64,000 nucleotides of DNA, taken from positions 62,001 to 126,000 of the forward strand of contig NZ_FNKP01000003.1 in the NCBI RefSeq assembly GCF_900099835.1, written 5' to 3'. Positions within the stretch are counted from its first letter, which is position 1. Every line of letters begins with the position of its first letter. The position numbers were made by a program, and so were the translations under genes. This stretch comes from Paraburkholderia fungorum. GTDB taxonomy: Bacteria > Pseudomonadota > Gammaproteobacteria > Burkholderiales > Burkholderiaceae. Under the pieces are notes generated by a model, which made no database searches, was not told where the DNA came from, and worked only from the letters and a program-made list of their open reading frames with translations. This document shows positions 39,608 to 45,666 of the stretch, piece by piece.

Positions 39608-39622
39608 GCAAGCTCCATGCCG
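39608..39622 (-). promoter_or_regulatory. -24/-12-like element upstream of fhcB, shared with pqqA
   Basis: Read leftward this is CGGCATGGAGCTTGC, with GG and GC 12 bases apart as in sigma-54 promoters (consensus TGGCAC-N5-TTGC). Fourteen of the bases are identical to those upstream of pqqA. Transcription from it would begin about at the fhcB start codon, so it would be nearly leaderless, or the element may act as a protein-binding site instead. Confidence 0.4.
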
Positions 39623-39867
39623 ATTTAAATCCCGCGCCCACGCGGCATCGCCTGAACGGTCGTGCTGCTTTGTTTTCAGCGGAATCGGGATTGCTGCGTG
39701 ACGATTCCTGCGCGCTGCAAGGACCCGGCCGGTGTTGAAACGTCGGACAGGTTGTGTTCGCGACTGGAGCAGAGTGTCACGCGCGGGCATCGGCGGATGT
39801 GGCCCGCCTGTCTTTCATTTGCCTATACGGCACGCGCGCCGAATGGCATGGAAATTGTATGGCAGTG

Positions 39868-40614
39868 CTAGCGCGACGCGGTGGGCGTGATGTCCATCTG
39901 CACATCGTGCAACGCGGACGCGACGAGCCACGCGCTCGCGCCGGTGTTGGCCGCAGTATCGAGATCCGCACGATGACGGATACCGCCCGCGCCGATCACC
40001 GTGGTGTGCGCAGGTGCGCTGTCGCGGACGCGCCCGACGCTGGCGAGATCGGGACCTGCGTAGCTGCCGACCTGATCGAGCGTCATCACGATGACGCGCG
40101 AGGGCCACCACGCCGAACCGTTGTCGAGCGATGTGGCGGCCAGCAGCGCGCCGCCGCGATGATCGAGCGACAGGATCGGCGCGAGCCCGGCGGCTTGTGC
40201 AATCTGAAGGGCGTGAATATCACGGAGCGATTCGGAGCCGAAGACCGGCACGAGTCGCGCAAGCGAGGGACGAGCGGGATGGGCGTCGCCAGGGATGAGA
40301 GTGTCGATGTGGTCGAACAGCGCGCGCATCGACGCGTAATCCGTGTAGCCGGCGTCGAGCCAGATGTCGACGCCCGGCAGCGCGGTACGCAACGCGGCGA
40401 GCGCGTGCACATGTGCGCCGCGCTGCAGGATTGCGCCGAGGTCGGCGATGTAGAGCGTGCGCGCGCCGCTGGCGGCGAGCAGCGCGCGAGCGATGACAAG
40501 CGGTTCGCTGCCCGCGGCGAGACGCGACTGGATGGGCCGATAGGCCGTTCGCTCGCCGCGCACCGCGCGCACCACGTGGCCGTCGAGCAGATCGAGAACC
40601 GGTATCACCTGCAT
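39868..40614 (-). CDS. HisA/HisF-like TIM-barrel protein of the C1 cofactor cluster
   Basis: 248 residues beginning MQVIPVLDLLDGHVVRAVRGER, clearly of the HisA/HisF fold, with IADLGAIL and later VIGAGGIRHRADL at the phosphate-binding site. It lies among methylofuran/H4MPT genes and not among his genes, so a step in cofactor synthesis is more likely than histidine synthesis; the reaction is unknown. Such HisA-like proteins recur near these genes in methylotrophs. It is divergent from the MfnD-like gene with only 14 bases between starts, and 272 bases upstream of fhcB. Confidence 0.82.
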   Translation of the reverse strand: MQVIPVLDLLDGHVVRAVRGERTAYRPIQSRLAAGSEPLVIARALLAASGARTLYIADLGAILQRGAHVHALAALRTALPGVDIWLDAGYTDYASMRALFDHIDTLIPGDAHPARPSLARLVPVFGSESLRDIHALQIAQAAGLAPILSLDHRGGALLAATSLDNGSAWWPSRVIVMTLDQVGSYAGPDLASVGRVRDSAPAHTTVIGAGGIRHRADLDTAANTGASAWLVASALHDVQMDITPTASR

Positions 40615-40628
40615 GGGGGCGCGTTCCT

Positions 40629-41690
40629 TTGACCAAGATCTTTGTCTACGAGTATCTCACCGGCGGCGGCATCGATCCTGCGCTCGCGGGCGAAGGCAAG
40701 CTTGCCGACCTGAGCGCGCTGATCGTCGAAGGCCGCGTGATGCGCGATGCGCTGCTGGCCGATCTGCGCAAACTGGACGGCGTAGAGGTGACGTTCGCGA
40801 CATCGCGCTTCGAAACGCCCGAGCTTGGGCAGCGTCATTGTAGGGCCACGCCCGGCGAATCGATGACGGCCTTCGTCGCGCGCGAGGCGCGCGCCCACGA
40901 TTACGCGTGGATCATCGCGCCGGAATGCGACGGGCTATTGCTGCGGCTGTACGACGCGGTTGGCGCGGCGCGCTGGCTCGGTTGCGCCAAGGAAGCGATC
41001 CGCGTCGCGTCGAGCAAGAGCGCGACGGCCGCGTGTCTTGCCGCGAGCGGCATTGCGACGACGCCCGCGCTGGAACCTGGCGGGGCAGATCAGGCCGACG
41101 AAACCGCTGGCCGCCGCTGGGTCGTCAAGCCCGACGACGGCGCGGGCGGCCTCGACACCTTCGTGTTCGATCATCTCGCCGATGCATGTGCCGAATACGA
41201 AACGCGCGCGGCCGCAGCGCGCAATCCGGTGCTGCAGGCATGGGTCGACGGCGAGCCGCTGAGCCTGTCGCTGCTGTGCCGCGAACGGCATGCCGAAGTG
41301 ATCAGCATCAATCGTCAGCAGATCGGCTTGAGTCGCGCAGATGAAACGTCGCAAGAGCCGCACATCGTCGAATTCGACGGCGTGCTGGTCGATCAGATCG
41401 ACCGCTTTAGCGACCAGGGGCGCACGCTCAGTGCGCTCGCGCTGCGTATTGCGCTGGCGTTGCCTGGGTTGCGCGGTTTTGTCGGTATCGACGTGGTGTG
41501 GCATCCGCAGCGTGGCCCGGTGGTGATCGAGGTGAATCCACGCGTGACGGTCGCGTACGCCGCCCTCGCGGCCGCACGCGGCGGCCAGCTTGCGCGCGCG
41601 CTACTGACGGCGCATGGCGTGCAGATCACTCCGCCTGCGAGGATGACGCTCGTGAAACCGCCTCAGTCGACGCTCGGAGCGCAGTCTTGA
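40629..41690 (+). CDS. ATP-grasp ligase, MfnD-like
   Basis: 353 residues with a TTG start at 40629 (TTGACCAAG); no ATG or GTG gives a full-length N-terminus MTKIFVYEYLTGGG. The ATP-grasp core shows RWVVKPDDGAGG for nucleotide binding and VIEVNPRVTVAY for metal binding. Archaeal MfnD attaches glutamate to tyramine in methanofuran synthesis, and the neighbours here are homologues of MfnF, MfnE and MfnB, so this is the likely counterpart in bacterial methylofuran synthesis. The stop overlaps the next start. Confidence 0.85.
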   Translation: MTKIFVYEYLTGGGIDPALAGEGKLADLSALIVEGRVMRDALLADLRKLDGVEVTFATSRFETPELGQRHCRATPGESMTAFVAREARAHDYAWIIAPECDGLLLRLYDAVGAARWLGCAKEAIRVASSKSATAACLAASGIATTPALEPGGADQADETAGRRWVVKPDDGAGGLDTFVFDHLADACAEYETRAAAARNPVLQAWVDGEPLSLSLLCRERHAEVISINRQQIGLSRADETSQEPHIVEFDGVLVDQIDRFSDQGRTLSALALRIALALPGLRGFVGIDVVWHPQRGPVVIEVNPRVTVAYAALAAARGGQLARALLTAHGVQITPPARMTLVKPPQSTLGAQS

Positions 41691-45014: not shown

Positions 45015-45090
45015 GGATGGGAACGTGTGTCCTGACAGCGCCGACAGGCCGGCCGATTAACGTACTGAAAAGATCAACCAACCGCGAAAT

Positions 45091-45109
45091 GGGCCGCAAC
45101 GCGCGGCCC
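45091..45109 (-). terminator. Stem-loop directly downstream of pqqA
   Basis: A perfect 7-bp GC stem (GGGCCGC/GCGGCCC) with a 5-base loop starts 12 bases after the pqqA stop. The sequence beyond it on the transcribed strand is ATTTC, not a strong T-run, so it may attenuate or protect the 3' end and not fully terminate. This fits a short abundant pqqA transcript. Confidence 0.55.
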
Positions 45110-45120
45110 TTCTAGCGGGC

Positions 45121-45195
45121 TTAACGCGTAGCGACATACATCACGATTTCAAAACCGAGACGCACATCGACATAGCTCGGAGTGGTCCATTGCAT
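45121..45195 (-). CDS. pqqA: PQQ precursor peptide
   Basis: A 24-residue peptide beginning MQWTTP and ending FEIVMYVATR. The Glu and Tyr separated by three residues (E-I-V-M-Y) are the atoms that become PQQ. The start is the ATG at 45195, with GGAGGAAG upstream, and TAA ends it. The frame is also open for another 115 codons upstream by chance, which would hide the gene. It is about 14 kb from pqqE and 12 kb from pqqB, beside methylofuran genes and the cbb operon. Confidence 0.97.
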   Translation of the reverse strand: MQWTTPSYVDVRLGFEIVMYVATR

Positions 45196-45666
45196 ACGTG
45201 CTTCCTCCATGAGTTGAAACAGCGTTGCGCCGCAAGCCGAACGACAGGCCCGGCCTTGACGGCAACCGGCATGACGCAAGCTCCATGCCTGTCGGTTGCA
45301 ACGCACGGGTGAGCCAGCGCAACTGCAGCCGATCAATACAGCATCCGCCGAATTGCGCCAGCGCGACACCTGCGCGAGCCATTCAACATGGCATGCCGCG
45401 CGGTGTGGCGAAAACGAAGCAAAGTGTTCCATCGCGCTGCGGAACGCCCGCAACGTTGTCACGCCAGGTTCGTATCGCCTCGTCGGATATTCTGCGCCGG
45501 TTTTCCGTGCGCTGCTGAAAATCCGCTTCGCGATATGCAATCGATAATGGATCGGTTAAGTCTGCCAAATAAAATCGTGAATTTTCAATAGCGACGAGCG
45601 TGCCTACAGTGCAACTCAAGCGCTTCGTTCTTCCGGCCACGCGCTTGCCACATTCGAGGACACGTC
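45196..45666. other. Divergent promoter region between pqqA and cbbL
   Basis: 471 bases with no gene. It holds the -24/-12-like element of pqqA (45276-45290). Near cbbL, between about 45540 and 45590, it is AT-rich, with several TNA triplets and a TAA-N8-TTA pair as in weak LysR-type (CbbR) sites. No LysR-family gene lies in the window. Confidence 0.6.
45276..45290 (-). promoter_or_regulatory. Candidate sigma-54 promoter of pqqA
   Basis: Read leftward it is AGGCATGGAGCTTGC. GG and GC are 12 bases apart, the -12 box TTGC is perfect, and the -24 box is AGGCAT against TGGCAC. The predicted start is near 45264, giving pqqA a leader of about 70 bases. The element is identical over 14 bases to the one before fhcB. 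A sigma-54 activator is encoded at 54762-56780. Confidence 0.5.

Follow-up and report, generated by a model that had tools for sequence, protein, structure and literature searches.

Why are two genes of one cluster preceded by the same 14 bases? In a stretch of 64,000 nucleotides from Paraburkholderia fungorum (contig 3, NZ_FNKP01000003.1, positions 62001-126000; hereafter the window), the 14-mer GGCATGGAGCTTGC stands ahead of fhcB, a gene of the formaldehyde-oxidizing complex, and ahead of pqqA, the gene for the precursor peptide of pyrroloquinoline quinone (PQQ). The initial annotation had read the two copies as sigma-54-like elements and had suggested joint control of PQQ precursor supply and formaldehyde oxidation through a sigma-54 activator encoded in the same cluster. 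Our analysis makes this reading highly probable: a pair of sigma-54 promoters, served by the activator of the cluster, would control both gene sets, and the fhcB message would be leaderless.

A sigma-54-type element ahead of fhcB and pqqA

The two copies, at 39608-39621 and 45276-45289, were confirmed as exact and leftward, i.e. on the minus strand. They are the only exact copies in the genome (8,581,175 bases, or 8.58 Mb, in 4 contigs), in which 10 places carry the sequence with one mismatch. By simple arithmetic with equal base use, both strands of 8.58 Mb would contain a given 14-mer about 0.06 times. The sigma-54-like character was also borne out, as both sites have the sigma-54 spacing GG-N10-GC and match TGGCAYRN4TTGC, including its TTGC box, at every letter except the first T.

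Related loci were scanned with TGGCAYRN4TTGC, allowing at most one mismatch and making GG and GC obligatory. The loci comprised 79 fhcB copies from genus genomes and that of the window, 80 in total; 82 copies are listed in the genus set, and those of genomes G159 and G102 were left out of the locus analysis. Eleven named relatives (Paraburkholderia and Burkholderia sp., among them P. xenovorans LB400, which we take to be the present name of Burkholderia fungorum LB400) partly overlap the genus genomes and were not added to the counts. The element was present at all 80 fhcB copies. pqqA was within reach in 60 of the 80 loci (the other 20 had none in reach), and each of these 60 genes had exactly one element within 420 bp upstream. 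Besides the GG and GC required by the scan, the columns C, A, T, and T were invariant at fhcB, and the commonest letters of the N4 spacer reached 52-88%; at pqqA, A, T, and T were invariant, C was at 81%, and the spacer letters were at 55-73%. Locus alignment, made independently of the scan, gave the same picture of kept contact letters and a free spacer. Within a genome the two 14-mers were identical in 14 of the 60 cases with both genes in reach and different in 46. Judged from these counts, the unit kept in relatives is the -24/-12 skeleton GGCAYR-N4-TTGC, and the full 14-base identity in the window is incidental. The expected recurrence of the element ahead of the same genes in relatives was thus found for the skeleton but not for the exact 14-mer.

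As to the background of the scan, over the 80 loci (1,495,360 strand-bases) it gave 159 elements, of which 80 belong to fhcB, 60 to pqqA, and, by subtraction, 19 lie elsewhere; the reversed control gave 20. Elements followed by an ATG at 12-13 nt numbered 80, every one at fhcB (including G122's own), and there were none in the reversed control.

Two other accounts of the 14-mer were considered and rejected. An origin as a repeat or mobile remnant does not fit, because the flanks of the two copies align only at shared motifs, and because 46 of 60 genomes have two differing copies. Strict elements did not reveal a larger genome-wide set: GGCAYRRANMTTGC occurs at 6 places and ACACTNTGCTYC at 4, and both together occur only at the two sites in the window.

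The fhcB element lies close to the predicted start codon

The sole NCBIfam match of the reading frame at 38177-39595 is formylmethanofuran dehydrogenase subunit B (TIGR03129), below cut-off (181.4 vs 327.8 bits), and some of its relatives carry the subunit B annotation. The genes behind it are tightly packed, with the largest gaps at about 145 and 113 nt when the starts chosen in the analysis are used, and the fhcB promoter probably carries them too by co-transcription. In this row, fhcD and pqqD are presumed names, given by position.

Counted from the -12 C, the ATG of fhcB follows at 12 nt in 41 of the 80 copies and at 13 nt in the other 39, which corresponds to a predicted leader of about 0-2 nt. 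This ATG is the sole ATG, GTG, or TTG ahead of the conserved core in 24 of 80 copies, and the frame is not open from the promoter-spaced ATG in two, both in G020. We also examined homologues outside the set (29 of the 35 other genomes that have a match, and 4 plasmid loci out of 32 records; records of Azospirillum and Rhizobium were left out). In all six homologues at 42-59% identity (Caballeronia, Cupriavidus oxalaticus, Azoarcus KH32C, Aquabacterium olei, and two further genomes) the element lies 11-15 nt ahead of an in-frame start, which is also the annotated start where a record is annotated (two of the six). In the 27 distant homologues (32-38% identity), no element is followed by an in-frame start at 9-17 nt, and 8 of them carry one of at most one mismatch elsewhere in the 420 bp upstream. 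The promoter-at-ATG arrangement looks like a trait of one FhcB branch that has been kept there. Because every one of the 80 copies has the 12-13 nt spacing and a similar one of 11-15 nt recurs in six of six other homologues at 42% identity or more, the predicted leaderless message looks conserved rather than accidental.

The fhcB element is best read, on the basis of this geometry, as the promoter for a leaderless message. The initial annotation had offered a fallback, in which the fhcB copy, being too near the ATG, is a mere protein-binding site. This is now less likely given the constancy of the spacing in the genus and its recurrence in other genera, together with spacer letters at 52-88% between constant CA and TT. 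Second-copy fhcB genes, with about 50% protein identity, bear TGGCATATGAGTTGC-like versions of the element with a different spacer.

Upstream of fhcB is a co-oriented HisA-like gene that ends about 270 bp from it. Between this gene and the fhcB upstream motif lies an opposite-facing sigma-54-like element, TGGCATGGAAATTGT (39844-39858, plus strand), with GT for GC at -12. In 64 of 80 loci the same strand has a match to TGGCAYRN4TTGY within 420 bp. Transcription from this element would proceed toward mfnD, antisense to the HisA-like gene.

An upstream motif common to both elements

The pattern ACACT.TGCT[CT]C occurs in only two places in the window, 156 nt before the fhcB element and 138 nt before the pqqA element (start to start), and alignments of relatives show a conserved block at its position. 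ACACWBTGYTYC was found in 51 of 80 fhcB upstream regions (reversed control, 0/80), and ACACTYTGCTKC in 58 of 60 pqqA upstream regions (reversed control, 0/60). The bipartite pattern of motif plus promoter, within a limited spacing range, occurred in 26 of the 144 genus genomes (reversed, 0/144); fhcB is present in 25 of these 26, the exception being G032. An inverted-repeat search of the two upstream regions gave weak palindromes only.

The idea that one activator motif serves all promoters was rejected. ACACWNTRYKYC is present in 53 of 80 fhcB, 19 of 60 pqqA, 3 of 20 xoxF, and 7 of 20 pterin-operon regions, with 0, 0, 1, and 2 occurrences, respectively, in the reversed control; in the 74 kb island it occurs 8 times (two of them forming one palindrome, and three away from any known promoter), compared with 0.5 expected in Markov sequence. 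The counts by gene therefore suggest that the activator site varies by clade, and for xoxF and the pterin operon such a site is not established.

A TonB-dependent receptor gene (25373-27898, minus strand) lies near the PQQ and one-carbon (C1) genes, with the motif ACACTCTGTTTC near its start (27688). The receptor might take up a metal-binding compound.

The activator gene accompanies fhcB

The sigma-54 activator was confirmed in the same cluster. Its Sigma54_activat and HTH_8 domains scored 212.7 and 40.9 bits, and the GAFTGA signature is present; among the best 25 of the 28 NCBIfam families matched, none was above cut-off. Presence was called across the 144 genus genomes at E <= 1e-80 for fhcB and E <= 1e-150 for the activator. 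All 73 fhcB-positive genomes have the activator, compared with one of 71 fhcB-negative ones, and in that one the copy is interrupted by three stop codons. Where fhcB is present in two copies (nine genomes), the activator likewise has two loci, and in G113 and G020 each activator locus lies 14-17 kb from one fhcB.

A palindrome upstream of the activator gene is akin to the ACAC..TG motif. It is visible in the closest relatives and degenerate or absent in others, among those listed, and is possibly an autoregulatory site.

The pqqA side

The 24-residue PqqA peptide is above its family cut-off (TIGR02107, 37.7 vs 20 bits). Of the two genes behind it, one encodes a 200-residue protein without an NCBIfam match, presumably DUF447-like, and the other an MfnB-like protein. 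Between pqqA and the divergent RuBisCO gene is a highly conserved block (45545-45590) with TTTATTTGGCAGACTTAA, which we take to be probably a cbb promoter or CbbR region.

A published rpoN effect on the fhc side

The genome has two rpoN genes. In nodule RNA-seq of P. phymatum STM815, as far as the available text goes, the transcript of Bphy_6505, formylmethanofuran dehydrogenase subunit A, was lower in the rpoN mutant than in wild type (log2 -3.5; PMC5979394). In this species (genome G106; plasmid NC_010625.1, its contig 3, with a 60-base match) the element is present at both fhcB copies. Bphy_6505 was placed at copy a (1,085 kb) and not at copy b (459 kb) by interpolation from locus-tag order, with the hydantoinase genes Bphy_6150-52, taken as the match at 701 kb, as anchor.

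Proposed regulation

Conservation of the promoters, the shared upstream motif, co-occurrence with the nearby activator gene, and, on the fhc side, the rpoN transcript effect in the accessible part of PMC5979394 together support joint control of PQQ precursor supply and formaldehyde oxidation. In the scheme that we propose, the two 14-mers would be -24/-12 promoters of sigma-54 (RpoN). One would drive pqqA together with its downstream genes, and the second would drive fhcBADC and, most likely, pqqBCDE. The PQQ peptide and its maturation enzymes, encoded about 12 kb apart, would thereby be switched on together with the formaldehyde-oxidizing complex. The GAF/AAA+/Fis activator (54762-56780) most likely binds the ACAC..TG.T.C motif ahead of each promoter, and would open the sigma-54 RNA polymerase complex on sensing a signal, which we guess to be a C1 substrate or metabolite. 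At fhcB transcription is predicted to begin at the start codon itself (leader of 0-2 nt), and translation would proceed without a Shine-Dalgarno leader. The sequence, its conservation, the spacing, and the co-occurrence are observed directly, and the rpoN effect is the published work of others. The identity of the activator, its binding site and signal, the extent of the operons, and leaderless translation are the parts of the scheme that we infer.

Several observations weigh against this scheme. The genus genomes are related, and counts across them are not independent. At fhcB, 29 of 80 regions are without ACACWBTGYTYC, one ending at a contig end and 28 keeping GTGACA (a post hoc observation), and the degenerate motif occurs in the island at 27688, 59246, and 72312, where there is no known promoter. 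In-frame starts exist upstream of the fhcB ATG in 42 of 80 copies and downstream in 31, with both in 19. In G108, two activator loci stand against a single listed fhcB. In G032 the motif and promoter of pqqA are retained, yet there is no fhcB match and no orthologue of the activator (best match, 41% identity). On the experimental side, pqq does not occur in the main text of PMC5979394, as far as that text was available, and the nodules of the rpoN mutant do not fix nitrogen (PMC5979394); the rpoN effect could be indirect, because fixing and non-fixing nodules of a species other than that of the window were compared.

G032 speaks for a rival in which both elements are sigma-54 promoters driven by another activator, such as a paralogue of that at 54762-56780. 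Other sigma-54 activators are plentiful, with 17 and 13 matching stretches in the two genomes examined. This genome retains matches to the protein behind pqqA and to fhcC, pqqB, pqqC, and pqqE, but the mfnB-to-fhcA proteins find no match in it, so that pqqA lies near fhcC-pqqBCDE; its sole trace of cbbL is a 44-residue match (locus L105). The promoter there may, however, be a relic, given the missing mfnB-to-fhcA proteins and the cbbL remnant. With the distribution of the activator set against it (73/73 vs 1/71, paired loci in the nine two-copy genomes, and stops in the one copy lacking a partner fhcB), we regard a different activator as improbable.

It is more doubtful still, indeed very unlikely, that the 14-mer is the site of an unrelated regulator and that transcription starts elsewhere, from sigma-70 promoters or by read-through from the HisA-like gene. 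The absence of room for a leader at fhcB and the co-oriented gene ending about 270 bp away speak for it. Against it, substitutions in the element fall mostly in the N4 spacer, the distance to the ATG is constant, the TGGCATATGAGTTGC-like versions at second-copy fhcB genes have another spacer, and an rpoN effect has been published, in the part of the source available (PMC5979394). Accidental sharing in a GC-rich genome can be practically dismissed. Loose matches (at most 3 mismatches) do number 17 in the window, about twice the shuffled mean of 9.2 and a count reached by 3 of 100 shuffles, but the exact pair is unique in 8.58 Mb, it is conserved in the relatives examined, and the reversed controls have no such matches. 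Control of both sigma-54 promoters by the activator of the cluster is the explanation that we favor.

Table 1. Coordinates of the features discussed, numbered from the first base of the window.
Feature	Position	Strand	Remarks
fhcA, fhcD, fhcC, cytochrome b561-like, alpha/beta hydrolase, pqqB, pqqC, pqqD, pqqE, response regulator	28948..38180	-	tightly packed
fhcB	38177..39595	-	earliest possible start, ATG 39593-39595, closely preceded by an in-frame TAA; a TTG at 39586 is an alternative
Putative sigma-54 -24/-12 element of fhcB promoter (GGCATGGAGCTTGC)	39608..39621	-	exact copy; element in 80/80 fhcB; predicted +1 near 39596
Activator-type motif ACACTCTGCTCC	39766..39777	-	-24 element of fhcB follows after about 145 bp
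Two genes downstream of pqqA	43644..45014	-	200-aa protein (44412-45014); MfnB-like protein (43644-44393)
pqqA, 24-residue PQQ precursor peptide	45121..45195	-	GGAGG ribosome site ahead
Putative sigma-54 -24/-12 element of pqqA promoter (same 14-mer)	45276..45289	-	element in 60/60 pqqA; +1 predicted near 45264, giving a leader of about 69 nt
Activator-type motif ACACTTTGCTTC	45416..45427	-	-24 element of pqqA follows after about 126 bp
Sigma-54 activator	54762..56780	-	GAF, PAS-like, AAA+, Fis-type HTH; candidate activator of both promoters
Palindrome TGGCACA-CTG-TGTGCCg	57072..57088	.	upstream of activator gene; kin to ACAC..TG motif

A possible wider regulon

Just past the window is a gene for a PQQ alcohol dehydrogenase of the methanol/ethanol family, presumably xoxF-like from motifs that we recall. 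It is preceded by CGGCATGGA-type elements 138-145 nt before the start in 20 of 20 loci, with two consensus mismatches each, and the divergent pterin operon by elements of the TGGTAYG type, also in 20 of 20, which have one or two mismatches and stand 36-157 nt ahead of the start. In locus L171 they are at 66427 (plus strand, xoxF-like) and 65549 (minus strand, pterin operon), past the end of the window; locus L192 matched neither the xoxF-like gene nor the pterin operon. From their sequences these elements are similar to but weaker than the fhcB/pqqA pair, since xoxF varies too little for a free spacer to be seen and the activator motif is inconsistent there. There are probably more than two promoters of this type, to judge from these elements.

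A pair of back-to-back sigma-54-like elements was seen in genome G000 at C2:2292891 (minus strand) and 2293199 (plus strand), at a distance of 308 bp; the genes to either side appear to point in opposite directions.

A bolder proposal can be made tentatively, and we hold it to be possible rather than likely. The fusion of a sigma-54 promoter to the start codon of fhcB may be an old, selected feature, giving leaderless translation of the operon that perhaps persists when formaldehyde halts translation, and one activator may run an island-wide C1 regulon of the xoxF-like dehydrogenase, the pterin cofactor operon, pqqA, and fhcBADC-pqqBCDE. Translation arrest by formaldehyde, mediated by EfgA, is reported for Methylorubrum extorquens (PMC8153426). 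For its part, the favored scheme, if right, would provide Paraburkholderia-type facultative methylotrophs with one candidate switch governing the oxidation of methanol and of formaldehyde as well as cofactor supply, and fhcB would be a model of a sigma-54 promoter yielding a leaderless mRNA. It would also explain how pqqA can stand apart from pqqBCDE without loss of coordination. The predicted starts are precise, near 39596 for fhcB and 45264 for pqqA.

Comparison with known systems

The arrangement resembles sigma-54 promoters with a site for an enhancer-binding protein in having a motif at enhancer distance and a GAFTGA-bearing AAA+ activator in the cluster. The order of GAF, AAA+, and Fis helix-turn-helix domains in the latter is the same as in activators that we take to be of the AcoR type. 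It differs in that one of the promoters lies directly at a start codon, and in its proposed targets, PQQ and tetrahydromethanopterin (H4MPT) C1 genes, a set that no paper met in the literature search describes. A literature search of titles, the beginnings of abstracts, and open-licence text gave no report of sigma-54 control of this island or of a conserved leaderless sigma-54 promoter. Neither appears in the available part of a methanotroph transcript map (PMC12403871), and the terms sigma54, RpoN, and enhancer are absent from the available part of a formaldehyde review (PMC8879981).

Leaderless mRNAs have been mapped by transcription start site sequencing in Sinorhizobium meliloti (PMC3616915), Bradyrhizobium japonicum (PMC4842269), and Methylosinus sporium (PMC12403871), according to the accessible sections of these reports. 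The likeness lies in transcription from the AUG, which for fhcB is a prediction. These sections mention no sigma-54 dependence of any leaderless start. In the section available, the motif of leaderless genes in B. japonicum is an extended -10 box (PMC4842269), whereas that of fhcB is of the sigma-54 type.

The RpoN sites of P. phymatum, as given in the available text, are GGCACG-N4-TTGC (PMC5979394), and the elements described here have the same consensus and spacing. Formaldehyde oxidation by the H4MPT pathway is ascribed to Burkholderia fungorum LB400 in the part of the review available (PMC8879981); the pathway is the same as that of the window, and both promoters are present in the LB400 locus (L017). 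PQQ-dependent alcohol oxidation is also under regulation in Pseudomonas putida, but by the two-component system PedS2/PedR2, as described in the accessible part of PMC6115532; in the island described here, the evidence points instead to sigma-54 and an enhancer-binding protein.

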